Assembly (NCBI GenBank): GCA_900188465.1
Contig: FZPE01000001.1
Coordinates: 930,001 to 994,000, forward strand
Origin: Micrococcales bacterium KH10
GTDB taxonomy: Bacteria; Actinomycetota; Actinomycetes; Actinomycetales; Cellulomonadaceae
DNA length: 64,000 nucleotides
Direction: 5' to 3'
The position numbers and the translations under genes are program-made. Shown here in pieces: positions 41,671 through 64,000 of this stretch; positions within the stretch are counted from its first letter, which is position 1; every line of letters starts with the position of its first letter. The notes under the pieces were generated by a model. It was given only the letters and a program-made list of their open reading frames with translations. It was not told where the DNA came from and made no database searches.

Positions 41671-42636
41671 CTAACGGATGACGAAGTTGGCGCCTTCGCC
41701 GATCTCGATCACGGTGCCTACCGTCACCGGCATCGGAACCGCTGCTTGAATACGCGTCGGCTCCTGATCGGGAACCGTCACGTAGACACCGTTGGTCGAG
41801 TCGAGATCGGTGACGAAGATGTGCTCCCCCGCCTGCCACACTTGGACGTGGGTGCGAGATATGTCCCGTTGTGGTGAGTCGAAAGTGACCAGCCGCGGCA
41901 ACGCATCGCCGATCGCGCGTGAAGCGATCGGGGCTCGTCCCATCAACACCGGGCGGTCAAGCGGAACGACGAGCCCGGTCGCCAGGACCACACTGCGAAC
42001 GTCTCCGCTGCTTCCATCCGCAGCCGCCTCAGCGCCCTCGTCCTGGCCGAGGTCCACACCACCGACATCTTGGAAGTCATCGGCAGGACTGCGGTCCACA
42101 CCCTGTCGTGCAGCCCGGATCGATTCGGCTAACACCGTCGCGTCGAGGGCTTCAAGGTCCAGTTCGCCGTCAGTAGCGGTCTCCAGCGGCGGTTCGGGTG
42201 GCATCGAGACGATCGACGTGACCTGGGCCGCGCCTACGAGGCCAGACTCGACCTGCCAGCCTTCACCCAACCGCGCGGTCTCACCCGCCAGCATCGCGGT
42301 GACCCGCATGGCACCGTCGAGGCGGCGACGTTCCAACTCGCCCGACGCACTCGCTATCGTGACGATCTCGCCATCGGAGTCCTGCAGTTCGATACGGGCG
42401 TCACCTCGGACCGCGACTTCGATCTGCCGTCCGACGACAGCGACGTTGGCGAACGCGATGTCGGTGTGACCGAAGTGATCGAGAATCGCGATGATGGCGT
42501 CGGAGACCATGGTGCGCAAAGTGCGCTGCCACAGTACCGCTGCAGCCTCGTCACTGATTCCGGTCGCTACAACGACGACTCCGTTGGGCCGGATCACAGC
42601 GGCGCCTTCACCCGCGATGTACCTGCTATTGAGCAT
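41671..42636 (-). CDS. FHA-domain protein with N-terminal unknown region
   Basis: This phosphothreonine-reader protein has 321 residues. The first 145 or so residues form an alpha/beta region of unknown family (GVVVVATGISDEAAAVLWQRTL), followed by an acidic linker with about 20% Asp/Glu. The C-terminal FHA domain has the core RDISRTHVQVW and DLDSTNGVYV. There is no membrane segment. Its start lies within the 3' end of the upstream FHA gene (11-nt overlap), so the two are cotranscribed and probably work together. The partner phosphoprotein is unknown; a repeat protein with suitable threonines is encoded at 56719-57483. Confidence 0.88.
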   Translation of the reverse strand: MLNSRYIAGEGAAVIRPNGVVVVATGISDEAAAVLWQRTLRTMVSDAIIAILDHFGHTDIAFANVAVVGRQIEVAVRGDARIELQDSDGEIVTIASASGELERRRLDGAMRVTAMLAGETARLGEGWQVESGLVGAAQVTSIVSMPPEPPLETATDGELDLEALDATVLAESIRAARQGVDRSPADDFQDVGGVDLGQDEGAEAAADGSSGDVRSVVLATGLVVPLDRPVLMGRAPIASRAIGDALPRLVTFDSPQRDISRTHVQVWQAGEHIFVTDLDSTNGVYVTVPDQEPTRIQAAVPMPVTVGTVIEIGEGANFVIR

Positions 42637-43516
42637 TGCCTGCCTCTTTACTCACACGACGTGGACATATTCTCAGGTCACCTATCTCAACGACATCTCC
42701 GGCACTAATCTTGACCCGCCTGGCCGGATGACATTCAATCAGTCCGCCGTCAGCGCGATGTACCCAGGTTCCGTTGGTCGATCCCAGATCTACTAACCAG
42801 AAGTCATCTTCTTCATGTCCGACGATCAGATGCGACTTTGACAACTCGCCACTCGGGTCGCTCAACCGAACCAACTGGTTGGCGCCACGGCGCAACTGCG
42901 GGCGGCGTCCCAGTACCGCTGAGCCTTGTACCGACACGTGACTGCCGTCGCTGATGTCTAGTACGAACGGGCGGTGTCGTCGCTTCGCTGGCGCCTCGAC
43001 CGAAAATGGCTCATCGGGACGCGTCACAGAACGCGGTGGCGGCAAAGTGTCAGCTGCGGCCACCGCGAAATGGTCCATCGGTTCGCGATCTACCGGTTGA
43101 TTCGCGAGGATTGCGGGAGCTCGACCACTCGGCGGATCAGCAGCTGAGCGGAGGGGGGCCTCGATGATCAGCTCTGAGTCATCGAGCACACCGGCACTGA
43201 GGAGGGGCGGCACAGTCTTGTCATCAGGATCTGGGATGACCCATGTCGGGGCAGCGATTGGGCGCAGTACCTGATGCCGTGCCATAGGCTCATGCGACGG
43301 CGAACCGGGGTGCGGCAGTGCGGCAGGTGTGCCGATACGGTCCTGCGGCATCTTGGGCGTCATGGGAGCTACTCCTGCCGTATCGGCGGCGTTCAGCGCG
43401 GCCTCGTGGTCCAAGACACCTGGCTTCGCCACGTGCACACGACGATGACGGCGCAGCAGGAGCCCCATAGCCACCACAGCGCCGACTCCCGCAAGGACAC
43501 CGAAGAGTATCGTCAC
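42626..43516 (-). CDS. Membrane-anchored FHA-domain protein
   Basis: This 296-residue protein has one N-terminal membrane helix (ILFGVLAGVGAVVAMGLLL) followed by a basic cluster, a Pro/Ala-rich linker of about 150 residues, and a C-terminal FHA domain with LGRRPQLRRG, SKSHLIVGH and DLGSTNGTWV. The orientation should put the FHA domain in the cytoplasm. It overlaps the next FHA gene by 11 nt. No kinase is adjacent. Confidence 0.88.
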   Translation of the reverse strand: MTILFGVLAGVGAVVAMGLLLRRHRRVHVAKPGVLDHEAALNAADTAGVAPMTPKMPQDRIGTPAALPHPGSPSHEPMARHQVLRPIAAPTWVIPDPDDKTVPPLLSAGVLDDSELIIEAPLRSAADPPSGRAPAILANQPVDREPMDHFAVAAADTLPPPRSVTRPDEPFSVEAPAKRRHRPFVLDISDGSHVSVQGSAVLGRRPQLRRGANQLVRLSDPSGELSKSHLIVGHEEDDFWLVDLGSTNGTWVHRADGGLIECHPARRVKISAGDVVEIGDLRICPRRVSKEAGNAQ

Positions 43517-50398: not shown

Positions 50399-53300
50399 TC
50401 ACTTCGCGCGCAGTTGCACTGCCTTTGATGCCTTGGCCCGGAAGTTCTTCGGGGCCTTCGGTGCGAAACGTGCCTTGACCTTGATGCGAGCCTGGTTCGT
50501 GTAGCGAGCTGGCACTCGTACCGTCACTTTGCCGCGGCTCTTCGGCTTCAACCGCACGGTCGCAGCCTTCTTGCCTCCGACTCGCACCACGACGCGGCCT
50601 TGAGCCCAGCGGCCATTGTTCATCTTGCCCACCCGAATCTTGATCTGTGACATCGATCCGCGGTTGAACCGCTTCGTGGTGACCCGAACGTTCTTCGGAC
50701 GAGCCTTGATGACCTTGAACGTTTGAGGGCTCGCTGCCGAAGTCCTGGTCTGTGCGCCAGCGCGCAGCACAGCGACCACGTTGCGGTAGGTGCCACGCTT
50801 CAGGTTGCCCTTCAATCGCAATGTCGCAGTGTAGGCATTGCCAGACTTGACGACCTTCGCGGTGCCGAGCACGGTGTTGCCGGAACGGAAGGTCACAGTG
50901 CCGCTGGTGACTCCGGTGACCACGCTGGCAACCGAGGCGCGCAGTTTCGGCTTCGATTTGAACGCCTGGTTCTTCTTGGAGAAGTTCGGCGCAGTCACGG
51001 CCGGAGTCGAAGTGATTGGCACGACATTCACGGTGACCGGAGCTGAGGTCGAAGCGAGGTAGGTGGCGTCGCCCGAGTAGGTGGCAGTGAAGGTATGCAC
51101 ACCCGCTGTCAGCGCAGCTGTCGTCAGACGGGCCGTCCCCGCTACCAGGTTCGCGGTACCGATGGCGTTCCCGCCGTTGGCGAAGGTCACCGATCCGGTG
51201 GCCCCTTGCGGTACCACCGTCGCGGTCAGCTCAACCGAGCCACCCGCGTTGATGCTGGCAGCATTGGCCCGCAACGACGTGCTCGATGCGGTCGAGGCGC
51301 CCTCGACTCGTACCTCGCGTGTCACCAAACTGGAGTGTTCACCATCGTGGACCACGATGGACACCGTGAACGTCCCACCGACTGAGTAAACGTGGTCGAG
51401 GATCACGTTTCCGTTGACGTCGATCACGGCGTCCTTCGCACCGGTGCCGTCACCGTAATTGATCACGGCCGTCAAATCACCGCGGCCACCCGAAGCAGTC
51501 GCTGCGATACCCGAGAGGACACCATCGGTGCCGACTGCGATCTGCTCGTTCGAGGAAGCGGTCAGCGTCACTGCCGGTACGGCGGAACCGTTTGAGGCAA
51601 AGGCCACGACATGCACTTGGCCCTCTGGTTTGATGTTGCCGACCTGCGCCGGGAAGGTGACGGACTTGACCTGCTTGCCCGCGGCCAGGTTGACCGCGTT
51701 GGTGGCGAAGACCGCCGCGGTCAGCTCGTCCACTGCACTCACACCGCTAAGTCGGCCTTCGACCTGGAAGACTCGCGAGGTGCCAGCGACCGGGTTGGCG
51801 GCGGCACCTACCCAGTCACCGAATGCGACCGGGACGGCCTGGTTGGTGCCGTCGGTGTAGTTCAGCGTCAAGGTGGTGCTACGGGTGCCCTCGTTAGCGA
51901 AGCCCAACACAGACAGCTTCGTTGCGCCCGGAGCCAGCTTCACCGGTACGGTCTGCCCGGCCGGGAAAATGGTGTCTGTCTGCCCAGTCACGGACTTGGG
52001 CAGTGCGTACCGGAAGGTGTCGCCGCCTAGGTTGAACGTCGCTTGCTCGCCGAATGTCGCACCGGTTGCCTGCGCGACCTTGGCACGATCGAAGGCGTAG
52101 CCGTTGCCGTCACAGTCACCACCGACACCTTGGACCGAGAAGCAAGACAGGTTGGCACCGCGAACGATGTTCGCAGCGTCAGACTTGTCGAGCAGCACGT
52201 CGACGACGATCTGCGCCGCTTCAGTTTGGCCGCCAACTGTCACTGTTACCTGACCGGTCTGGCGGCCCAGCATTGATTCCGGCAGTGGGCCGGTCAGCGA
52301 AACCTGGAGGGCGCTGCCCACTCCGACCGATTCGACCACTGCCGGCACCGACTGACCCCCAAGGGTGACTGCCGCGGTGAAGGCCCCCGGCGTCACGGAA
52401 CCGCCGCCGGTGATCCGCGCCACCGGCAGCCCCAACGGAGCGGCAGCGACAGCTTCGAGCTGCGAGATAGCCTGCACCTGTAGCGGCCCTTGCGCAGTGG
52501 CATTGCCGTCGACCAGCAGTTCCAACTCGGCGATCTTCAACGAACCGGCAGTCGAAGAACTGTTTTGGACGACGAGTCGATACCGCGGGTACGCGGCCGG
52601 GCTGGCGACGGAGAACGGTCTGGTCTGAGTGCGCCACTGGAAGGTCTCGCCACTGCGCTCGTCGACGGTGACCCAGTTCGAGCCGTCGTTCGAGCCTTGC
52701 AGCCGCCAACTCTGCGGTGCTTTGCCGTCTGCGCCATTCGTGATGGTGTATCGCGAGATGAGCACCTCGCCGACGTTGGAAGTCGCGGTAAGAGTCGGGG
52801 TATTCGACGAGAACGTCGCTTCAGACTTGGAGTTATTGTCGATCAGGTTGGCCGTCGACGTGCCATCTGAAGATGACAGCGTGAACCCGCCGGCGCCAAG
52901 CACATCGCGCTGTGGCGTGGGAGCATCCGCGGCCAAGTCATGTTCGCCCCAGGTCGATGGTGTCGCCCCCATGTTGAACGTCAGAGTCTTGTCTGTGCCA
53001 GTCAGGTCATCGGTGGTCACCGTGACATTGTTGTGCGCCGCGCCATTGAGGTTGACCGACTGCACATACACGTTGTCGAAGCTGTTGTTGTTCGACGTGA
53101 TCGTGAGTTTGTTGTTCGTTCCCAGCGGACGCAGTACTGCCTGATCGTACAGCGGTGACCCCAGAGTGTACTCACCAGATCCCGGTGCCAATGGATAGAG
53201 CCCCAGAGCGCCGTAAATGTACCACGAAGCCATTGCACCGTTGTCCTCGTCACCTGGGTATCCCTGGCCGATCTCTGACCCGACAAAGAGACGTTGCAAA

Positions 53301-56300
53301 GACTCACGAATGATTTCCTGAGTACGACTTGGTTTACCTGCCGCGGCGTAGATGTATGGGATGTGGAAGGACACCTGGTTGCTGGCTCCCCACTGGCCCA
53401 TCCGGACGTCGCGCGCCTCGAAGGTCTCATGGATGCGCCAGCTCCAGGCGCGTTCCTGCGTTGCGAAGAACGTGTCGAGCTTCTCCACCAGCCCGTCCTT
53501 GCCGCCATACAGGCTCGCGAGTCCGTCTACGTCATAGGGCGCGTGGAAGGCAAAATTCCATCCGTCCGTTTCCGTGTAGACGTGGTATCCGGTTCGGTAG
53601 TCACCGTCCCAATGCTCCGGATTATAGATAGTCTCAACGTTGTCGTAGGTGTATTCACCTGGTGCCATCACAAACGCGCCGTCCTCATGACGCCCTTGAA
53701 AGAATCCCGGTGAGTCATGTCCGACATTCGGATCAAATAAGTTGACGTAGTCCTCAGTACGCGCCATGAAATACTGCGCCTCTTCGCGTAGTTGCTGACG
53801 CCGTCCCTGTGGTGTTTGCGGATCGTCTGCAAGTTTTTTGGCCATCTGCGCTAGTGCGTAGTCATTGATAAGACCTTCGAGACCCCACGAGACGCTCTGA
53901 TCTTGGCTAGCCGGGGTATACCCTAGGAAGATCGATCTGTGAAGGCCTTTACGTCCCACATGCCTCGCCTCGTAATCGAAACCGTTCGGCAAGTTTGAGT
54001 CGGAAAGCACGGTCGCGTTCTTCAGTGCTGCATCATAGGCTTCCAGCGCAAGGTCTGTCGGTAGTGAACCAACTACATATGCCTCCGCGAAGGACGCGTC
54101 GGAACTCGTGCCTGTCATGAGGTCTGAGTACCCCGGTGAGGACCACCTCGAGATCCATCCACCATCGCGATATTGTTGCACAAAGCCGTCAATTAATTCG
54201 GCGGACAACTCTGGGTACAACTGTGAGTACAGCGGCCATGCAGTGCGGTAGGTATCCCAGAAACCGTTGTTGACATAGAGCTTTCCATCGCGTACTTGAG
54301 CGTTAGTTGTAGTCGACCCCGGGCTTCCAACCGAGCCGACCACGGGGCTCGCATATTTGTATTGCGGGTTTGAAGCGGTCCCCGTGTTCTCGAACTGCGA
54401 GTTGGGGTATAGGTTGAGCCGATACAGGTTCGAGTACAAGTTGACCATTTCTACGTCGTTCGCGCCTGATACTTCAATAACTCCGAGTCGCTCATCCCAA
54501 GCAGCCTGAGCAGCCGACTGCACGTCATCGTAGCCCCAGTTCTTGTCGAGTATTTCCATCTCCAGGTTCTTCGTAGCCTGGTTTACTGAGATGAAAGATG
54601 TCGCAATTTTGACCTCAATTTCTTTGTTTGTTGAAGTATCGAAACGGAATGCCAGAGCACTGTTACGTCCAGAAGCGACGTTGAAAGAAGTCGCTGCCTG
54701 GGAGAAAAGGATGGAGAAGTACATCCGTGTCACACCTGAACCGACGCCTCCGTCGATATAACCCGTGACCTTCTCCAGACCAGGTTCCTCCACCATGAAA
54801 CTCGACCCGTTATGCACCTGATCGAGGAAAAGTGTGCCCTGATTCTCCTGACTCGGGTAGGTGAAGCGGAAAATACCCGCGTGGTCCGTCGGAGCGACCT
54901 CAGCTTTAATGCCGTTGTCGAAGGTAACGGCATACTCATCGGGTTGCGCGATCTCGTTCTCGTGACCAAATGATAGTTCACGCGCAACCAACCCCGCATT
55001 CGGAATACCTGGGGAGTAAAGCGCGGGCATGAATGCTAACTGGTTGCGATCCTGCATCCAGATACTCGGTTCATGTGAGATACCGATACCCTGCAACCGG
55101 GGACGGTTGTTCGCGTCGGCTGCGGCTTGGTACTTGTAGAGTTCACGGTTCGATTCACCCTCCGTGAATGGGGTGAAAAAGTTAAAACCATTGGGCCATG
55201 CTGTAGCCGGAAAGTTGTTGCCACGCGAGAAAGCTCCCGACGAGTTGGTGCCACGGCGCGTGTCCACGTAGTTTGTCAACGAGTCATCAGGATTCTCGAT
55301 TGGTTGCTTCGCACTAATCGCGATGTCGTCGATCCACCCTTGGAACGATGTCACATCGGACCCATCCGGGTTGTTGTAGGTCAACAGAACCTTGGTGATC
55401 TTTTTGCCGGCAATGCTCGCAAGGTCGACACGAATCTTGTTCCACTGATCCGGCCATAATGTCTTGGCACGGCCTTGCTCGGTGGCAGTGATGCCGTAGC
55501 CGTACTGGTCGGTCAATGTGCTGTTGCTTGAAAGCAGGCGTGGATTTGAACCGTTGGCGTCGGTGTACTCAACGTCAATGGCAACATAGTTGCTCGGGTA
55601 GGTCAGATCGGATTCGTGCAGTTCCGGGAAGACGAGGTAGGACAGTTCGGAGTCGTCGCCGACGGTGATGTTCAGCCCGGAGTACAGCACATTGGTGGCA
55701 CGAGCAGTCGAACCGTTGCCCACGTGGTAGCCGCTGTAACGCATCGACTTGAGCCCGGTGAAACCAACGTTGGCACGCGCAGTCCTGGAACTGGCCGGGC
55801 CTGTGCCCGCGATGGTGGTCATCGCCGGAAGGCCAGTCGGGTTCACCGTACTTGTGCCGATCAACTCGAATTCTGCGAGCTGCGTGTCATCGCGTCCGTT
55901 GTTGGCGGTGACGTTGATCTGGTAGTAACGGTAGGCCGCTTGGTTCCCTCCTGGCACCGCGTAGGTGTGCACGCTGAAATGCTCTGGGATGTTGTCGCGC
56001 ATCTTCAACTGGTCGGCGCGAGTGTCAATGGTTGACCAGTCGGTGCCGTTGTTGGAACCCTGTAACGCCCAGTTCTTCGGGTTGCGCTGCCAGAAGTCGT
56101 TGGCGGTGGTCAGTCGGTACGCCGTGACCGTTTGTGCGGAGCTGAGCTCGTAACGCAAGTATCCGGTCGGTGATGGCATGTACCACTTGGTGTCACGACG
56201 GCCATCATGTGCTTTGTCGGCGGCTTCATTCGCGCTACCTTGACCGCTGGCCGTCACGTTGGTGACAAACGAACTGAGGCTACCCGTGGTGCGGTCGATG

Positions 56301-56551
56301 CCGGCTACATTCGAGGTGGGTTCGAAACCCGCCACGCCGCTGCCGCTGTACGTCGTCGACTCTGTGACAGCAGGGTCCGCGGTCTCGAAAGAAGTGCGCC
56401 AGGTATCTCCGACTGCCGGTGCTGCCTGGGCGGGCGCCGCGGCGATACCTGCCAGCGTGGCAGCGAGTATTGCGGCGAGGCTGACACCAACAGTGCGTCC
56501 AAGACGCATTCGTTTGGGCATGGCCTGGTGGCTTGATGTCGCTATCGACAT
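50399..56551 (-). CDS. Very large secreted GH92 alpha-mannosidase with CBM32, PKD and Ig-like domains
   Basis: This exo-alpha-mannosidase of family GH92 has 2050 residues. I choose the ATG at 56551 with AGGAG at 5 nt; it gives a signal peptide cleaved near AQA (residue 43). Domains in order: CBM32-like module (about 90-240), a beta-sandwich, the GH92 N-terminal domain beginning YVDTRRGTNSSGAF (about 427), the GH92 catalytic barrel ending with GDEDNGAMASWYIYGALGLY (about 1110), a second CBM32-like module (about 1225-1350), beta domains, a PKD-like domain (GDGTGAKDAV), two Ig-like domains and a basic terminal domain with 32 Lys/Arg and no Asp/Glu in 101 residues. It likely trims N-glycan or fungal mannan mannose. 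It has its own strong promoter. Confidence 0.93.
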   Translation of the reverse strand: MSIATSSHQAMPKRMRLGRTVGVSLAAILAATLAGIAAAPAQAAPAVGDTWRTSFETADPAVTESTTYSGSGVAGFEPTSNVAGIDRTTGSLSSFVTNVTASGQGSANEAADKAHDGRRDTKWYMPSPTGYLRYELSSAQTVTAYRLTTANDFWQRNPKNWALQGSNNGTDWSTIDTRADQLKMRDNIPEHFSVHTYAVPGGNQAAYRYYQINVTANNGRDDTQLAEFELIGTSTVNPTGLPAMTTIAGTGPASSRTARANVGFTGLKSMRYSGYHVGNGSTARATNVLYSGLNITVGDDSELSYLVFPELHESDLTYPSNYVAIDVEYTDANGSNPRLLSSNSTLTDQYGYGITATEQGRAKTLWPDQWNKIRVDLASIAGKKITKVLLTYNNPDGSDVTSFQGWIDDIAISAKQPIENPDDSLTNYVDTRRGTNSSGAFSRGNNFPATAWPNGFNFFTPFTEGESNRELYKYQAAADANNRPRLQGIGISHEPSIWMQDRNQLAFMPALYSPGIPNAGLVARELSFGHENEIAQPDEYAVTFDNGIKAEVAPTDHAGIFRFTYPSQENQGTLFLDQVHNGSSFMVEEPGLEKVTGYIDGGVGSGVTRMYFSILFSQAATSFNVASGRNSALAFRFDTSTNKEIEVKIATSFISVNQATKNLEMEILDKNWGYDDVQSAAQAAWDERLGVIEVSGANDVEMVNLYSNLYRLNLYPNSQFENTGTASNPQYKYASPVVGSVGSPGSTTTNAQVRDGKLYVNNGFWDTYRTAWPLYSQLYPELSAELIDGFVQQYRDGGWISRWSSPGYSDLMTGTSSDASFAEAYVVGSLPTDLALEAYDAALKNATVLSDSNLPNGFDYEARHVGRKGLHRSIFLGYTPASQDQSVSWGLEGLINDYALAQMAKKLADDPQTPQGRRQQLREEAQYFMARTEDYVNLFDPNVGHDSPGFFQGRHEDGAFVMAPGEYTYDNVETIYNPEHWDGDYRTGYHVYTETDGWNFAFHAPYDVDGLASLYGGKDGLVEKLDTFFATQERAWSWRIHETFEARDVRMGQWGASNQVSFHIPYIYAAAGKPSRTQEIIRESLQRLFVGSEIGQGYPGDEDNGAMASWYIYGALGLYPLAPGSGEYTLGSPLYDQAVLRPLGTNNKLTITSNNNSFDNVYVQSVNLNGAAHNNVTVTTDDLTGTDKTLTFNMGATPSTWGEHDLAADAPTPQRDVLGAGGFTLSSSDGTSTANLIDNNSKSEATFSSNTPTLTATSNVGEVLISRYTITNGADGKAPQSWRLQGSNDGSNWVTVDERSGETFQWRTQTRPFSVASPAAYPRYRLVVQNSSSTAGSLKIAELELLVDGNATAQGPLQVQAISQLEAVAAAPLGLPVARITGGGSVTPGAFTAAVTLGGQSVPAVVESVGVGSALQVSLTGPLPESMLGRQTGQVTVTVGGQTEAAQIVVDVLLDKSDAANIVRGANLSCFSVQGVGGDCDGNGYAFDRAKVAQATGATFGEQATFNLGGDTFRYALPKSVTGQTDTIFPAGQTVPVKLAPGATKLSVLGFANEGTRSTTLTLNYTDGTNQAVPVAFGDWVGAAANPVAGTSRVFQVEGRLSGVSAVDELTAAVFATNAVNLAAGKQVKSVTFPAQVGNIKPEGQVHVVAFASNGSAVPAVTLTASSNEQIAVGTDGVLSGIAATASGGRGDLTAVINYGDGTGAKDAVIDVNGNVILDHVYSVGGTFTVSIVVHDGEHSSLVTREVRVEGASTASSTSLRANAASINAGGSVELTATVVPQGATGSVTFANGGNAIGTANLVAGTARLTTAALTAGVHTFTATYSGDATYLASTSAPVTVNVVPITSTPAVTAPNFSKKNQAFKSKPKLRASVASVVTGVTSGTVTFRSGNTVLGTAKVVKSGNAYTATLRLKGNLKRGTYRNVVAVLRAGAQTRTSAASPQTFKVIKARPKNVRVTTKRFNRGSMSQIKIRVGKMNNGRWAQGRVVVRVGGKKAATVRLKPKSRGKVTVRVPARYTNQARIKVKARFAPKAPKNFRAKASKAVQLRAK

Positions 56552-56645
56552 GACGGCTCCTGGTGGTGAGGGCGGTGATCCGGCTGACTGCGTCATCCGT
56601 CCCGAAGCAGGTTCAGGGCATGGACGAAGCGTTTCTGCCGACACG

Positions 56646-56718: not shown

Positions 56719-57483
56719 TCATCCCAGCAACAGCGCTAACGCACCCACCGTGACACAGCTGCCCGCAACGATCAGGAGCACCAGGCGCCATCGAATCCGC
56801 GGCTTGCGGCGCTGCGGCGCCTGTTCGATTTTGGGCACCGTGACGCGTTGGCGCGTCGCAGGCTGTGTGAAGTCCTGCCGTGTTCCGCGTTCGACGTCTC
56901 CGGTCTTGCGCAACTCGTAACGCTCGTAAGATAGCGGCGACGAAGGGTCAACGGGGATGGATACGACTGCTAAGTCATCGCGAACTGACGGCGGAACCTG
57001 TCGTTGTGCTGCTTGTCGGACCGTAGCCTCATCAGCTGGCGGTACCGAATGATGCCTGGGACGTTTGCCGCTGACAACAGTGACGTCATCATCGGGAATG
57101 TCAACTCGGGCGCGCACTGCCGTGGGGTCGTCGTCCAACATCCCCTCGTCATCGACACCGGCCAACGACGCTCGTCCCCGCACCACCGTAGGATAGTCGT
57201 CCAATGTGCTGTCATCTGTGGGAATGCCAGACGTTGGTCGGCGTCGGATCACAGTGGGGTCATCGTCGAGGGCGAGGTCAGCACCCGACTGCGCTACAGC
57301 GCCACGCGACCGGATGACCGTCGGATCGTCATCAACCACATCGTCATCAGTCGCACTCCCCCGCGTGCGCACCACGGTGGGGTCATCATCCAACGCTCCG
57401 TCATCATCGACACCGTCCGACGACGCTCGTCCCCGCACCACCGTCGGATCGTCGTCGAGCGACCGATCATCCTCATCAGTCAT
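56719..57483 (-). CDS. Tail-anchored protein with six acidic-Pro-Thr repeats (putative phosphothreonine hub)
   Basis: I do not recognise this family. The 254-residue protein has six copies of a block of the form LDDDPTVVRxR, with threonines at residues 14, 36, 55, 77, 99 and 121 (spacing 22, 19, 22, 22, 22) and a degenerate seventh at 135. A basic middle region with RQAAQRQVPPSV follows, then SYERYELRKTGDVERGTRQD, a very basic stretch, and a single C-terminal membrane helix (LVLLIVAGSCVTVGALALLL) at the extreme end. It starts within the PP2C stop codon (ATGA). Threonine after a run of acidic residues suits PknB-type kinases, and FHA domains read such sites; no kinase is in the window. The role is inferred. 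Confidence 0.8.
   Translation of the reverse strand: MTDEDDRSLDDDPTVVRGRASSDGVDDDGALDDDPTVVRTRGSATDDDVVDDDPTVIRSRGAVAQSGADLALDDDPTVIRRRPTSGIPTDDSTLDDYPTVVRGRASLAGVDDEGMLDDDPTAVRARVDIPDDDVTVVSGKRPRHHSVPPADEATVRQAAQRQVPPSVRDDLAVVSIPVDPSSPLSYERYELRKTGDVERGTRQDFTQPATRQRVTVPKIEQAPQRRKPRIRWRLVLLIVAGSCVTVGALALLLG
57106..57459 (-). repeat. Coding tandem repeat, mostly 66-bp period
   Basis: This DNA encodes residues 9-126 of the repeat protein, six units of 22 residues (one of 19). Units 1 and 5 also share the flanking GRAS...GVDD, indicating recent tandem duplication. Copy number may vary between strains. Confidence 0.8.
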
Positions 57484-58307
57484 GATCGGCTCTGTCTCGG
57501 GGCGGTATCCTCATCCGGCAGTTCCTGCTCGAAGGCAGTCGTGACGACTTCTCCGGTACGTTCCCCATGCGCCATACCTCCCGCGATGACGTCGACTAGA
57601 ACAAGCGAGACGTTGTCCCTTCCGCCATTGTTCAACGCTAACGCGAGCATACGATCCACCGCATGCTGTGTGTCCGGCGTTGCGGCCAGTACGGCAGAGA
57701 TAGCGGCATCGGTGATCTCGTTGGTCAGTCCATCGGAGCAGATCAGGATGCGTTCCGTGTCGATCACCGGGATCAGGAACAGTGCCGGTTCGTGATCTGC
57801 GGCTCCTAATGCCCGAGTGATCACATTCCGACCCGGCGCGGACAGCGCTTCTTTCGCGGTCAAGGTGCCCTCATCCACCATTTGCTGGACGAGCGAGTGA
57901 TCAACGGTCAACTGCCGCAACTCACCATCGAGGTACCGGTAAACCCGCGAGTCTCCGATGTTGAAGACCAACCAATGCAGGCCCTCTCGGAAATCGACGA
58001 CCGCGACGCCGGCAACCGTCGATCCTGCGCTGCGCGGTCCGCCAGACGAGATCGAGACGACGTCATACTGCGCAGCATCGAGCGCGGCCACCAATTGCTC
58101 CGGCGAGATAGCACCGTTGTGAGCGTTATGGTGGAGTGCTCCCAACGCGCGGACCACGGCCGCCGATGCCACCTCGCCAGCCTCGTGTCCGCCCATGCCG
58201 TCAGCGATCGCGAAGACAAGGCCATCGGCTAACACCGCGTCCTCATTATGGTCACGCACCATCCCGGCGTGGGTTTCGGCCGCAACGGACACGTCCAGAC
58301 GTACCAC
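57480..58307 (-). CDS. PP2C-family Ser/Thr protein phosphatase
   Basis: This metal-dependent phosphatase reverses Ser/Thr kinase action. The 275-residue protein has all PP2C motifs: RDHNEDAVL, ADGMGGHEAGEVAS, GSTVAG, NIGDSRVYRY, VDHSLV, CSDGLTNEI and GGRDNVSLV. There is no membrane segment, so it is cytoplasmic. The start is a GTG two bases after the transglutaminase-like gene, and it overlaps the repeat protein gene by 4 nt. It is the likely phosphatase of that protein's threonines. Confidence 0.94.
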   Translation of the reverse strand: MVRLDVSVAAETHAGMVRDHNEDAVLADGLVFAIADGMGGHEAGEVASAAVVRALGALHHNAHNGAISPEQLVAALDAAQYDVVSISSGGPRSAGSTVAGVAVVDFREGLHWLVFNIGDSRVYRYLDGELRQLTVDHSLVQQMVDEGTLTAKEALSAPGRNVITRALGAADHEPALFLIPVIDTERILICSDGLTNEITDAAISAVLAATPDTQHAVDRMLALALNNGGRDNVSLVLVDVIAGGMAHGERTGEVVTTAFEQELPDEDTAPRQSRS

Positions 58308-58309
58308 CG

Positions 58310-60808
58310 TTAGTTATCCTCCGTGTCGTATGCATCAACGCGCGAACTCTGCTGCGTTAAGAACCGCCATGAGATTTTCGCACGCCAACGCTGCCAGGCA
58401 CCCATTTCGGCGCGTCGTTCTGCTATTTCCGCATGCACCAAACGCCAGTAGTCATCCGCCTCTTGTGAGGTGGGCTCGCGATCTGAGAAGACTGCGGCAT
58501 CTGCCAACACCGCCAGTGTGACGTTTTGTGTGCCGCCGTAGACCGTTGCGCTTTCAGTTCTGGTACGAGCCGCAAGACGTGGTTGCCCCATATCCACAGC
58601 GCGGTCGAGATATTCATCCCAGCCACCCGTGATCTGATCTTCCGGGGCGCCGCGTCGACGGCGCTTCCTGCGCAGCAACTTGACCAGCACGATCACCCAG
58701 ATGGGGCTGGTCAGCAGGAGCAGCGCACCCAGACTCACTCCTGAGATGGCCACGACTCGACGCCAGCTCTGATTCCCCGCAAGGTCCTCGGGTTGATCCT
58801 GTGCTACCGGGGAAGACGAGCCGCCGGACTGGGAACGCACATCAGGAGGCGGCAGTTGTGGCGATACATCGCGCTTGACCGGGTTGGAGTACTGATTCGG
58901 GGTGGGCTGGGTCTGGGTGTCGTCGAATGAGTTATCAGTACGAGCAACCGCCTCGATCGGCGTCCAGGAGCCATCGGCTGACTGCAGTTCAGCCCAGGCC
59001 CGGATGTCCTGGGCCCGCACCTGTCCATCCTCGGTCGGCGTCGCACCAAGCACGACCCGCACCGGGAATCCCGCGGCTTGTCCGAGCAGCGCGGCTGCAA
59101 CCGCGAACTGCTCATCGTCACCGACCACGGCGGCACAGCGGGTGTCCTGCGGTCCGTCGCATTTCCTTATGGTCGGGTCGATGAGGCGGTGGAAGATCTG
59201 CTCGTCAATCGTGCGCAGGTTGTGACCGGCATAACTCGGTTCGAAGCGGAATCCGTCGTTATCGACGGTATCCAGCCAGGTTCCCGCAGTCGTGTTCCAG
59301 GTTTCGGCGGGATCCACCAGCGAGTGACTCAGATAAGACGCCCACATCATGCGATCGACGATGTTTTGAACGTCGGCGACTGTGTTCAGCGGCGCGTCCA
59401 AGGTCTCCAACCAGGTGTACATGGCCGGCAACTCGTCCTGCGACCACTGCGAGTCGATACCGGGGCTACGTCCCGTAGGGCCAGCTGCGTCGGGTTCCGC
59501 GACTTTGAGTTCATAGGTGTCACCCTGCACAAGCCCGGTAACGTCCCTCGAACGAGGCGTCATCACGATCGCACCCGTGGTGCTGCGGGAAACATACAGC
59601 TGTGCCGCTAGTTCGCGGGCTGAATCACCTTGAAAGACGACCTCGACCACCTGGCCGACCGTTGGCAACCAGGGACCCTGATAATTCTCGATGTGGATGG
59701 CAACCGAAGTGTGAGCACCGGGCACATCGGCCACGCGATACGCAAGACGCCGGAAGTCGGAACTCGAGTCATCAGGGTCGACAGCGGTGAAGACATCGCC
59801 GCGGTACGAGGGCATCGTGGCGATCCGCACCCGTGACGGCAACTCGTCGGCCGATACTGTGAACAGCACCTCGTCAAGGTCTGTCCCGGCAAAATAAGAA
59901 CGGAACGTCGATAACGGACTATGGGACGGCGGTTCAACCACTTCGGGAGCGACAAAAGAACGGGCCACGATGCGCTGCGACGTCCATGTTGGCGCCACCC
60001 CCACGGCAACGATCGTTCCGATGAGCAACGTGGCGGTAGCCGCCAAGAGCCGCGCGGCCGGGAGGAAGATCATCCGCCGACGAGACCGCTTATCGGCCGC
60101 GACGGTCTTGACCCGCGGCGCGGCGAAATAGCGCCGGATGCTCAGCCAGAGCACCATGACGAGCGCCCACACCACGCCCAACGTGGCTTCGCGCGGTTGA
60201 GTGACCTGCCAGTCGATGAACGAGACCGTGCCGGATACCGTCAGCGGGCCTGTGACGATCACGAATATCAAGGGCACGGATACCGCCAGAATCCGCAGCC
60301 CGACCAAATGCGGCCGGCGCAGTTGCAGCAGCACGAGCCATAAGGCGCTGGCACCGAAGACGATGAACGCCGGCACCAGGACGTTGCCGAATTCCCCTAC
60401 CGGAAGATCCAGGGTGACGAGGGTCTTCCAAGCGGTGATGGGGGCCACCACCGCTTCTTTGAGCCCGTAGAGCAGGTTGGTCGGGAAACTCCATAGCGCC
60501 GAGCCGATCGCAAGAGGAATGACCGTGATGAAGTAGATTCCTACCGCCAGCAGCCAGACAAAACGGGCTTTGAGTTGCCACCGGGTACTGCAGACGATCG
60601 CTAATCCGGCGGCCAGCACAGTGGCAGCCACCGCGCAGATCACGTAAGCCGAATGTTGGTAGGTGGGCCAGCCGGCGACGATCGCTAATCCCAACGCAAG
60701 CGCCATCACGGCCGCGTCCAAGATCGGAATGACCTTCGACCGCGAGCGGGTGCGCCAGTTCACGGCGCCCCGGCCACCGCTATCGGCACCTTGATACACG
60801 TCGCTCAC
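58310..60808 (-). CDS. Multi-pass transglutaminase-like (TgpA-type) membrane protein lacking the catalytic triad
   Basis: This 832-residue protein has about six N-terminal membrane helices, an extracytoplasmic region of about 400 residues with a transglutaminase-like fold, another helix (VVAISGVSLGALLLLTSPIWVIVLV) and a cytoplasmic tail. In the active family the Cys lies in a C-E-(H/Q)-F-A context. Here it is GDDEQFA with Asp565 at that place; the His position reads DIRAWAEL (R603) and the Asp position GSWTPIE. All three catalytic residues are thus replaced, which suggests a binding rather than an enzymatic role. It overlaps the DUF58 gene by 4 nt. Confidence 0.88.
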   Translation of the reverse strand: MSDVYQGADSGGRGAVNWRTRSRSKVIPILDAAVMALALGLAIVAGWPTYQHSAYVICAVAATVLAAGLAIVCSTRWQLKARFVWLLAVGIYFITVIPLAIGSALWSFPTNLLYGLKEAVVAPITAWKTLVTLDLPVGEFGNVLVPAFIVFGASALWLVLLQLRRPHLVGLRILAVSVPLIFVIVTGPLTVSGTVSFIDWQVTQPREATLGVVWALVMVLWLSIRRYFAAPRVKTVAADKRSRRRMIFLPAARLLAATATLLIGTIVAVGVAPTWTSQRIVARSFVAPEVVEPPSHSPLSTFRSYFAGTDLDEVLFTVSADELPSRVRIATMPSYRGDVFTAVDPDDSSSDFRRLAYRVADVPGAHTSVAIHIENYQGPWLPTVGQVVEVVFQGDSARELAAQLYVSRSTTGAIVMTPRSRDVTGLVQGDTYELKVAEPDAAGPTGRSPGIDSQWSQDELPAMYTWLETLDAPLNTVADVQNIVDRMMWASYLSHSLVDPAETWNTTAGTWLDTVDNDGFRFEPSYAGHNLRTIDEQIFHRLIDPTIRKCDGPQDTRCAAVVGDDEQFAVAAALLGQAAGFPVRVVLGATPTEDGQVRAQDIRAWAELQSADGSWTPIEAVARTDNSFDDTQTQPTPNQYSNPVKRDVSPQLPPPDVRSQSGGSSSPVAQDQPEDLAGNQSWRRVVAISGVSLGALLLLTSPIWVIVLVKLLRRKRRRRGAPEDQITGGWDEYLDRAVDMGQPRLAARTRTESATVYGGTQNVTLAVLADAAVFSDREPTSQEADDYWRLVHAEIAERRAEMGAWQRWRAKISWRFLTQQSSRVDAYDTEDN

Positions 60809-62214
60809 GATTGCTCACCCCGCAACAGCAGGTGACGCAGGTCGTCGAGCACCGCAACCGTCACGATGGTCATATCGGACGTCTTGATGACCCGTGGGGC
60901 TGCTCCCAGATCGGCGACCACCGCTACAACCGAGACGTTCTCAGGGAACTTCAACGCACTTGAACGCAGTTCGGCCAGACTCGGCACGGCACCGCACACG
61001 ATGAACGCGACAGACAACCCGCTAAGGCTCTGTGCGGCCAACTCCGCCATCTCGACCAGACGCGGCGAGTTCTGGTACGGGTCGACGCCACTGAGCGAGT
61101 CCAAGAGCACCCGCGGGGTACGCGTCTCGAGCATTCGAATGGTGCGCAGGCCCCGGGTGTCGAATTCCGATATCGGTTCCGGCACGACGGTCTCGAACTC
61201 GCGTCCCAACCGCAGTCCGGAAACCCCCAGCGAGCCCGCGATGGACACCGCGAGCTCGAACTCGTCCTCCTCGGTGTAATCGGCTGCGCGCAGCGATAAC
61301 AGCACCGCCATCCGAGAGCGTCGGGTCTCCTCGAACTGGCGCACCATCAGCGTGCCGGTCTTTGCGGTGGCCTTCCAATGGATATTCCGCATGGGGTCGC
61401 CCGCAGTGTATTCCCGCAGCGCATGAAAGGAGATGTCCGCATCGGCAATGGTCCGAGTGGGGTGCCCCTCCAGGTCTCGGATCAGGCCCGCCTGCGACAT
61501 AGGAACGGCAGTGGTCTTCGGGTGCACGTAGACCACGAACTCACCGGGCCAGGTGGTCTCCAGCCGGAGCAGCTGCAACGGGTCGGTACGCACCGAGCGC
61601 ACCGGTCCCACCGGCACGACGGCACGACGATGTGTCGGCAGGACCAGCTCTTGTTCATGGGACGAGCCCGACCGAAGCATGGGGACGTCGACCACCGCGA
61701 GGGCATCCCCCATGGGAATCTCAACTCGTCCTGGCATCGACGCCCGACGCCCCGCGTTAGTGACCGTCACACTGCCAGTCGAGTCGTCACCGACCGTGAC
61801 TCGCTCGCGAAGCAGGCCCAGACTGACTTCATAGTCGCGCCGCGATATCACGAAGAGGATCGCGACCACCAAGCCGATGATTGCCAGAGCTCCAACAGCG
61901 GCGGCTTCCGCCCACCCCAGCCAAAAGGTCAGCACCGGGCCGATGGTCGCACCGGCGACCATGAACCATCCAGCGCTGGTCAGTGAACGCTGCAGCACCG
62001 CAAACCCGCGTGCAGTGCCCGCAACGACCCGACGCACAGTGCGCCAGCTTCCCACAATCGCGCCGGTGGCAATCGACGAGTCAGTCGTATCGGTCATCCG
62101 TGACTGAGTCGACTCCAGCGTCTGGGTGCTCGTCGTTACTCGGGTATGGGTGCGAATCCGCGTTCGGTCTCGAGTAGAACCGCCACGCGGAGCTGAGCCA
62201 GACTTGCCAGTCAC
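60805..62214 (-). CDS. DUF58 domain membrane protein
   Basis: DUF58 proteins act with MoxR ATPases and transglutaminase-like proteins, often in envelope or surface-protein assembly. The 469-residue protein has a Thr/Arg-rich N terminus, two close membrane helices (FMVAGATIGPVLTFWL and AVGALAIIGLVVAILFVI), a beta region and the DUF58 signature REYTAGDPMRNIHWKATAK. The start is GTG. It lies 24 nt after moxR and overlaps the next gene by 4 nt. Confidence 0.9.
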   Translation of the reverse strand: MTGKSGSAPRGGSTRDRTRIRTHTRVTTSTQTLESTQSRMTDTTDSSIATGAIVGSWRTVRRVVAGTARGFAVLQRSLTSAGWFMVAGATIGPVLTFWLGWAEAAAVGALAIIGLVVAILFVISRRDYEVSLGLLRERVTVGDDSTGSVTVTNAGRRASMPGRVEIPMGDALAVVDVPMLRSGSSHEQELVLPTHRRAVVPVGPVRSVRTDPLQLLRLETTWPGEFVVYVHPKTTAVPMSQAGLIRDLEGHPTRTIADADISFHALREYTAGDPMRNIHWKATAKTGTLMVRQFEETRRSRMAVLLSLRAADYTEEDEFELAVSIAGSLGVSGLRLGREFETVVPEPISEFDTRGLRTIRMLETRTPRVLLDSLSGVDPYQNSPRLVEMAELAAQSLSGLSVAFIVCGAVPSLAELRSSALKFPENVSVVAVVADLGAAPRVIKTSDMTIVTVAVLDDLRHLLLRGEQS

Positions 62215-62238: not shown

Positions 62239-63198
62239 TTATTCGGCGTGCTTCGTCGGTGGGGGCACGTCAAGCAGGATCTGCGAGATCACTGCTTCAG
62301 CGGTGACACCGTCGAACTCGGCTTCGGGGTCAAGGATAAGTCGGTGCGCAAGGACGGGCTGTGCCAGCGCCTTGATGTCGTCAGGTGTCACGTAGCTGCG
62401 GCCATGCGCCCCAGCCCACGTCTTCGCGGACCTTGTCAACGCCAAGCCACCACGGACCGAAGCACCCAACCGAACCTGCACCGCGTTACGAGTCGCCTCA
62501 ATGATGCGCGCAATATAGTCCGTGACCAAAGGGTCGATGTAGATGCCGCGAGCAATATCGGACAGCGTCAACAAAGTCTGGGGCGTGACCACCGGTTCGA
62601 GTAGCTCAGACCTTGCCGCTCCGGAGATGATCTCGATCATGGAGGCATGATCCGGATACCCGATGGATGATTTGAGCATGAAACGGTCGAGCTGCGCCTC
62701 AGGCAGCCGGTAAGTCCCTGCTTGCTCGACTGGATTCTGGGTCGCGATGACGAGGAACGGCAGGCCCACCGGTCGAGTAATGCCGTCAATCGTCACGTTG
62801 CGTTCTTCCATGACCTCCAGCAGCGCCGATTGAGTCTTCGGCGAGGCGCGGTTGATCTCGTCCGCGAGAAGGATATTGGCGAAGACCGGCCCCTTATGGA
62901 ACTCGAACTCACCGTTCTTCTGGTCATAGACCGTCATACCGGTGACATCGCCGGGCAGCAGGTCGGGAGTGAACTGGATGCGGGTAGACGTTCCAGCGAT
63001 CGACTGAGCCATCGCGCGAGCCAATGAGGTCTTACCGGTGCCCGGAACGTCTTCAAGTAGCAGGTGCCCTTCGCTGACCGCCGCGGTGAAAGCAAGTTTG
63101 ATGACATGCTGCTTACCCAGGATCACCGACTCGACATGAGAGACCAGGCGTTCAAAGGTCGTCTGAAACCACGTGGTCTGTTCCTGGGTGATCGCCAT
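62239..63198 (-). CDS. MoxR-family AAA+ ATPase
   Basis: This is a chaperone-like ATPase of 319 residues. It has Walker A PGTGKTS (residues 52-58), LLPGDVTGM, Walker B ILLADEINRASPKTQSALLE, sensor ATQNPVEQAGTY and the arginine region LPEAQLDRF. MoxR proteins are encoded with DUF58 proteins and are thought to help assemble membrane or surface complexes. It follows the surface-protein gene after 82 nt. Confidence 0.94.
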   Translation of the reverse strand: MAITQEQTTWFQTTFERLVSHVESVILGKQHVIKLAFTAAVSEGHLLLEDVPGTGKTSLARAMAQSIAGTSTRIQFTPDLLPGDVTGMTVYDQKNGEFEFHKGPVFANILLADEINRASPKTQSALLEVMEERNVTIDGITRPVGLPFLVIATQNPVEQAGTYRLPEAQLDRFMLKSSIGYPDHASMIEIISGAARSELLEPVVTPQTLLTLSDIARGIYIDPLVTDYIARIIEATRNAVQVRLGASVRGGLALTRSAKTWAGAHGRSYVTPDDIKALAQPVLAHRLILDPEAEFDGVTAEAVISQILLDVPPPTKHAE

Positions 63199-63280: not shown

Positions 63281-64000
63281 CTACGGTTCATCTCCCGGAT
63301 CTTCAGGGTCACCCGGGTCCTCCGGGTCGTCATCGTCGGGCGGGTCTGGAACTTCGCAGGTCACGGTTCGCTCAAATTGGTTGATATGCGGCGCATTGAG
63401 ATCGCTGAGCAAGCCCTGGAACGTGACAGTCAACGTGAAACGATACTGCCCTGGCAACACCGAGTCCCCGTCTGGGTACGGCGTCCATGACCTCGTTTCA
63501 CCGCTATTCGCTGAGGAATAACTCCACCAACCGGTCTCACCATTGGGTGCGACCACCGAGTACTCCCACTCCCAGTCCTGGTTTCTGATGTCCTCGAAGG
63601 TCGGGCGGCGGAATGTGAATTCGGCATTGTCAGGGGCCACGCACCCACCCGAGAAGTCCGGGAACCCGTCTTGGAAGCCCGCAGGGACATAGGGCGCCTT
63701 ATTGGCAGCGGGACCGATCGTGTACGGGTCGTCAACACTGGTCTCAAAGTTGTGGTCATCGGCCCTGAGATAGATCTTGACACTACGGTTCTGCAACGGT
63801 GACCCAGGCCGGGGATCGCCCGGGACCCGCACGGCCCGGAATTTCACGTTTCCGATGGTCGCCTCGCCCAGCACGACATTGAAACCAGAGTGCAGGTCAC
63901 CGACCACGTGGTACTTGAACTTCTGGAACACATCGATCGTGGAAGGCGATTCGACGACGATGACCTTGTCGTTCACCTCAGTGACATCCCCGAAATTGCC
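63281..64000 (-). CDS. C-terminal part of a large surface protein (gene begins outside the window)
   Basis: The frame is open from the window edge to a stop at 63281; 239 or so C-terminal residues are seen. Upstream of the first in-frame GTG (63976) the frame continues (GNFGDVTEV), so the real start is beyond the window. The sequence is beta-rich and polar, without catalytic motifs, and ends in an Asp/Pro/Gly tail (DPPDDDDPEDPGDPEDPGDEP, here broken as DPPDDDDPEDPG and DPEDPGDEP). There is no LPXTG or C-terminal helix, so anchoring must be N-terminal or absent. By position it matches the large fn3-type protein of bifidobacterial PFNA-like loci. Confidence 0.75.
   Translation of the reverse strand, partial: GNFGDVTEVNDKVIVVESPSTIDVFQKFKYHVVGDLHSGFNVVLGEATIGNVKFRAVRVPGDPRPGSPLQNRSVKIYLRADDHNFETSVDDPYTIGPAANKAPYVPAGFQDGFPDFSGGCVAPDNAEFTFRRPTFEDIRNQDWEWEYSVVAPNGETGWWSYSSANSGETRSWTPYPDGDSVLPGQYRFTLTVTFQGLLSDLNAPHINQFERTVTCEVPDPPDDDDPEDPGDPEDPGDEP

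Follow-up and report, generated by a model that had tools for sequence, protein, structure and literature searches.

The locus analysed here raises the question of what a small, tail-anchored repeat protein could contribute to an operon that carries a Ser/Thr kinase and a PP2C phosphatase. Within the window, by which we mean the whole stretch of 64,000 nucleotides that was analysed, its gene (the array gene hereafter) is the last of a PFNA-like operon transcribed in the order Ser/Thr kinase, 2123-residue Ig-like protein, MoxR, DUF58, transglutaminase-like protein, PP2C and array protein. The part of this operon inside the window comprises:

63281..64000, minus strand: C-terminal part of the 2123-residue Ig-like protein, whose gene runs on past the window
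62239..63198, minus strand: MoxR-type AAA ATPase (Pfam AAA_3, E 2.9e-62)
60805..62214, minus strand: DUF58 protein (Pfam DUF58, E 1e-9)
58310..60808, minus strand: transglutaminase-like membrane protein (Transglut_core, E 4e-8; TgpA_N under its cut-off)
57480..58307, minus strand: PP2C phosphatase gene (Pfam PP2C_2, E 1.9e-12), in ATGA overlap with the array gene
57495..57515, minus strand: DEDTAPR, the PP2C tail motif (tail pattern present in 33 of 45 PP2Cs)
56719..57483, minus strand: gene of the tail-anchored array protein, 254 aa (ORF with ATG start, without a Pfam or NCBIfam match)

The ORF coordinates (56719-57483 and 57480-58307) confirm the ATGA overlap of the array and PP2C genes that a first-pass annotation of this DNA had reported. 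The operon kinase is encoded at genome position C6 999583-1000839, its near end 5.6 kb past the window, and has a hydrophobic helix at its end; the fn3 match of the Ig-like protein stayed under the cut-off (22.5 versus 25 bits). The PFNA order of kinase, fn3-type protein, AAA ATPase, DUF58 and transglutaminase is present here, as is a phosphatase after the transglutaminase gene, a trait of some PFNA species only (PP2C, 57480-58307). An FHA gene that closes the cluster, likewise a trait of some species only, is not found at this position, the FHA pair of the window lying 13 kb further on. Positions 50399-56644, between the array gene and menC, encode a protein of 2081 residues that combines a GH92 glycosidase core (E 1.2e-120) with F5/8 type C and Ig-like domains; it was not seen between the array gene and menC in the G001, G002 and G003 stretches, where menC is directly next. 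An acidic-Thr-x-Pro motif of the DEDTAPR kind is found at the end of most operon PP2Cs (33 of 45 with Thr and 3 with Ser; shuffle mean 5.5) and may serve the phosphatase itself as a phospho-docking tail.

The array protein itself is built from the following elements:

57112..57459, minus strand: six core units with Thr 14, 36, 55, 77, 99 and 121 (codon-level reading)
57071..57090, minus strand: degenerate seventh unit DDDVTVVS, Thr 135 (pattern match; Thr number derived by hand from the match position)
56908..56919, minus strand: YELR, an instance of the YxxR motif common to 17 of 19 array proteins (motif count)
56725..56790, minus strand: C-terminal membrane helix, preceded but not followed by basic residues (hydropathy, model helix 232-253, charge count)

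Codon-level reading placed the six core threonines exactly where the first-pass annotation had put them and gave a nine-residue core consensus, (L/V)DD(D/Y)PT(V/A)(V/I)R. The near-identity described for the 22-residue units is confined to this core; the linkers differ, and one of the spacings between the core threonines (22, 19, 22, 22 and 22) is 19. Similarly, Thr follows three acidic residues and Pro in most units, with the exception of unit 5, whose core DDYPT contains two acidic residues. The proposed C-terminal membrane helix is supported by the hydropathy maximum at residue 233 and by a helix at residues 232-253, of low confidence, in a single-sequence model. Except for this helix and some weak strands, the single-sequence model lies mostly below a pLDDT of 50, and the mean pLDDT of the two alignment-free models is poor (46.6 and 38.6). 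The array strip is probably disordered, low pLDDT being weak evidence of this.

Comparison of six of the 19 arrays with Pfam and NCBIfam gave no family, a search of solved structures with the array protein returned nothing significant (best E 0.17), and a literature search, mostly outside subscription journals, yielded no description of such an array protein. Functionless low-complexity drift would account for the absence of a known family among the six compared arrays, for the low-confidence model and for the wide variation in unit number among the arrays described below. We nevertheless hold it to be scarcely credible in view of the codons. The one-base codon differences among the six cores were 57 synonymous versus 2 non-synonymous (15 unit pairs, which are not independent of each other), compared to an expected synonymous share of 0.26 for random changes, and Tandem Repeats Finder detected no DNA tandem array at the gene. 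Hence, the protein motif appears to be kept while the DNA drifts. The constraint on Thr across lineages, given below, argues against drift as well. The DNA pattern for (D/E)(D/E)xTV(hydrophobic)(R/S) had 8 matches in the 2.8 Mb genome, 5 of them within the array gene, and a reversed control pattern had none in the same genome.

With the window array as query, sequence matches were obtained in 2 of 58 other genomes, both of the same genus. Sequence divergence of the repeats is fast, and relatives were therefore sought through the operon slot. A scan of the genome contigs with MoxR gave only four loci. In the order, 84 other genomes reached a MoxR E of 1e-95 or better, and neighbourhoods were taken from 79 of them as well as from Rarobacter G002; the five genomes with the weakest MoxR (G163, G166, G113, G136 and G149) were left out, and one MoxR place per genome was used. 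In all, 84 stretches were annotated, counting L026, L027, L030 and the window, and 39 of these had no PP2C at the recognition threshold of 80 bits. In the remaining 45, the gene directly after PP2C encoded an array that has a C-terminal helix (16 cases), an FHA protein (18) or, as far as recognised, neither (11). One of these 11 stretches, L075, does have an array, which was missed since it was hidden by its long open frame, and from L065, a member of an array-bearing genus, no array was recovered. The arrays of L075, L063 and L030 were added by other criteria, resulting in a total of 19 that fall to Rarobacter (4 of 4 genomes), one genus of family f9 (nine arrays), family f19 (five) and one Microbacterium (L030). 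When one f9 array served as query, 11 of the 44 genomes of the f9 genus matched, the query's own counted. The units are lineage-specific (DDDPTVVR, DDDSTVLSSRR, DEATRLASRR, DEATRVVARR, ADETLLATRR), and an array has between 2 and about 15 of them, as counted with the patterns applied. In many genomes, one operon contains kinase, PP2C and FHA genes together. PP2C is not an obligate neighbour of the array, because no PP2C was recognised in the L063 and L030 stretches. In genome G044, the protein after the array gene (L059:2973-3672) contains a stretch, LGRGDDCDVTLADATVSKTHARI, that looks FHA-like by eye.

The idea of a phosphothreonine scaffold turns on the repeat threonine, and homologues from other families retain it while the remainder of their sequence has mostly changed. 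At the array site, acidic-x-X-(basic)-hydrophobic-hydrophobic, X is Thr in 78 and Ser in 1 of 106 sites from the 19 arrays, a count to which L075 contributes no site and which carries a bias toward Thr since part of the arrays were detected through the Thr motif. Five further arrays found by homology have Thr at 13 of 15 sites and Ser at none. Thr and Ser make up near-equal shares of the array regions (7.4% and 7.6%), and shuffling of the arrays leaves a mean of 3.0 sites each in this context. Furthermore, an ORF screen with the Ser version of the motif returned one 120-residue ORF and the Thr version 13, and every ORF of at least 90 residues directly after PP2C with a strong C-terminal helix has at least two Thr units. 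At the level of sequence, the array, the constraint on its threonine and its presence at one and the same operon slot in several lineages can hence be regarded as established.

Unmodified acidic-Thr-hydrophobic strips might also bind a partner independently of phosphorylation, for example by strand addition. The hydrophobic residues after Thr are indeed conserved along with it, and beta-rich extracellular domains contain this context too, for example in the large Ig-like protein of L064 with 25 motifs. However, the folded operon proteins favour Thr over Ser less than 2:1 in this context (9.1% versus 5.2% of 3258 sites), and the array is accompanied by kinase and PP2C genes, so that we judge this explanation very improbable. 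FHA domains bind phosphothreonine (PMC10470591, available extract) and, according to the extract of the PFNA review at hand, can bind phosphoserine too (PMC8430577). The preference for Thr over Ser thus favours, in terms of what the sequences suggest, a phosphothreonine strip read by FHA domains, with which it fits; a Thr-preferring kinase could produce part or all of the bias. Because of this kinase preference and of phosphoserine binding, the Thr bias is no proof of FHA reading.

The orientation of the protein follows from the charges around its helix. In all 19 arrays, the 15 residues before the helix contain 3 to 9 Lys/Arg and none follow it, which makes the one-sided basic tail anchor an evident feature of these predicted proteins; the array should therefore face the cytosol. 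A YxxR motif is located 41-61 residues before the helix in 17 of the 19 arrays (shuffle mean 3.5, maximum 9) and, by eye, in 4 of the 5 further arrays. It occurs once per array and is often followed by Pro. Such conservation would suit a reader other than FHA, in that the phospho-charge could influence an envelope partner, the kinase or the PP2C by way of the conserved YxxR region. For charge, phosphoserine would be equally good, yet Ser occupies 1 of the 106 sites, and we see a slight chance at most for this possibility.

If FHA proteins are the readers of the phosphothreonine strip, the window offers two candidates:

42626..43516, minus strand: FHA_B gene, candidate reader (Pfam FHA, E 2.8e-8; conserved position)
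41671..42636, minus strand: FHA_A gene, candidate reader (Pfam FHA PF00498, E 3e-7; conserved position)

The PF00498 matches verify the two FHA genes that had been noted at 41671-43516. The proposed link of this pair to the array drew support from two sides. The FHA_B-FHA_A pair follows menC, menD, an HtrA-like gene, ubiE and a polyprenyl synthase gene, an arrangement that is the same in G001 and G002 and thus in three Rarobacter species. In addition, the FHA_A domain has 29-54% identity, among the matches listed, with FHA proteins of other genomes, which are mostly encoded inside the operon. As judged from these sequences alone, the pair is related to the operon FHA genes. A search of solved structures matched FHA_A to an Fc receptor chain, which was judged spurious, and FHA_B weakly to the archaeal ArnA (E 0.00059). 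Since the genome encodes five kinases and eight FHA domains, the choice of a particular writer and reader is a guess.

The linkers of the FHA proteins carry Thr motifs of their own, which opens another explanation: the array may act as a sink that soaks up kinase activity, or as a competitor of the FHA-linker phosphothreonines that frees the FHA proteins from a GarA-like autoinhibition, with no platform being formed. Such a motif is preserved in the FHA_A linkers of all three Rarobacter species (DATVLA, EATVIA and DATVIA), and a Thr motif upstream of the FHA domain is present in 14 of 48 FHA proteins (shuffle mean 2.4, maximum 7), 35 of the 83 FHA matches having been left out of this count as off signature. 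In line with this, GarA is under the control of Thr sites on the N-terminal side of its FHA domain (PMC12321487, available extract). However, the linker site also holds Val (5), Ala (4), Gly (3) or Ser (1) in these 48 proteins, which makes the linker motif less strict than the array, and a sink needs no tail anchor. We consider a sink or competitor unlikely, although with a small chance that deserves mention.

Regarding the writer, the first-pass annotation had assumed that PknB-type kinases favour acidic residues before Thr. This applies to the mycobacterial PknA-dependent sites, which in the one study considered show an excess of acidic residues at -1 and -3 to -6, of Pro at -1 and +2, of a hydrophobic residue at +3 and of a basic one at +4, but not to the PknB site set, which displayed no significant enrichment (PMC7164672, available extract). 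The window unit has acidic residues at -2 to -4, Pro at -1, Val at +2 and Arg at +3, and is without the hydrophobic +3 and Pro +2 of the PknA type. Among genomes that lack an array, 13 of 40 have an acidic-Thr motif in the kinase linker (Ser 0, shuffle mean 0.4; median linker length 51.5), compared to 1 of 17 array-bearing genomes (median linker length 25). The sole kinase of an array genome with such a linker motif is the window's own (DDDVDTTVRP). We did not retain this motif as a sign of kinase preference; it is absent from the Rarobacter kinases of G001 and G002 and at most suggestive. A mutual replacement of arrays and kinase-linker motifs was likewise set aside as weak (1 of 17 versus 13 of 40, Fisher p 0.044, with genomes that are related).

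Taken together, we propose as a probable reading that the protein is a tail-anchored docking array, with candidate roles for its neighbours. The operon's own kinase would be the most likely writer and phosphorylate the Thr of the acidic-Thr-hydrophobic units, the phosphothreonines would recruit FHA proteins to the membrane with avidity, most likely the 41671-43516 pair, and the co-translated PP2C would remove the phosphate marks and thereby reset the strip. We infer here that the units are phosphorylated, which kinase writes the marks, that FHA domains bind them and that the PP2C resets the strip. More tentatively, and in our view with the balance tilting against it, the arrays might constitute a bacterial membrane-protein class without a previous name, an in-trans phosphothreonine docking strip that turns kinase output into a multivalent FHA platform, possibly a condensate. 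The number of units would tune the response, lineages without an array would have their acceptor threonines in cis (in FHA linkers and in the juxtamembrane segments of kinases), and YxxR would hold a second partner near the membrane. The best-known phospho-docking repeats with FHA readers are eukaryotic (MDC1). If the docking array is real, it would represent compact and rebuildable multivalent phospho-signalling at the membrane, with the likely writer and eraser in the operon and the likely readers nearby, and would open a way into the cytosolic side of PFNA-type operons. Given the near-absence of Ser, one substitution can probe the central claim.

The closest genetic counterpart is the bifidobacterial PFNA operon, which shares the order of kinase, fn3-type protein, AAA ATPase, DUF58, transglutaminase and phosphatase, and an FHA gene in some species (PMC8430577, available extract). 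The same extract describes no array gene but a seventh gene of unknown function between phosphatase and FHA (PMC8430577). The idea that this seventh gene is the array was dropped. In a family f4 genome with PFNA order, maybe not a bifidobacterium, an LRV_2 repeat protein (L125:3936-4535, E 5.2e-40) follows the PP2C, and the next FHA protein has DWDSTVLSS before its domain; the LRV_2 protein is a possible clue to the seventh PFNA gene.

Several phosphothreonines near the membrane are also a property of the PknB and StkP juxtamembrane segments, of which that of PknB is reported to bind the FHA protein FhaA; unlike the array, these segments belong to the kinase itself and do not form a separate repeat protein (PMC12077195, available extract). 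GarA and OdhI differ in that they combine acceptor and FHA domain in one soluble protein with a single ETTS motif and, by the extract at hand, neither array nor membrane helix (PMC12321487). The array protein gave no FHA match by Pfam or NCBIfam, and ETTS does not occur in its 254 residues. Multivalency of phosphothreonine and FHA domains is further known from Rv1747, an actinobacterial membrane transporter that clusters; compared to the array, Rv1747 holds FHA domains and acceptor sites within one polypeptide and is not known to contain a repeat array. The closest functional likeness is found in the SDT repeats of MDC1, where many Thr in acidic context lie in a disordered strip that is written by the acid-directed kinase CK2 and read by the FHA-BRCT region of NBS1 (PMC8079451, available extract). 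The corresponding trait is present in the array protein, with repeated acidic-context Thr motifs in a low-confidence strip whose model is mostly below pLDDT 50. MDC1 differs as a eukaryotic chromatin adaptor with pSer-Asp-pThr double marks and, in the extract consulted, no membrane anchor, and we claim no homology (PMC8079451). By analogy, the array would work like the SDT repeats of MDC1 and would build on the actinobacterial phosphothreonine-FHA switches represented by GarA and by PknB with FhaA.
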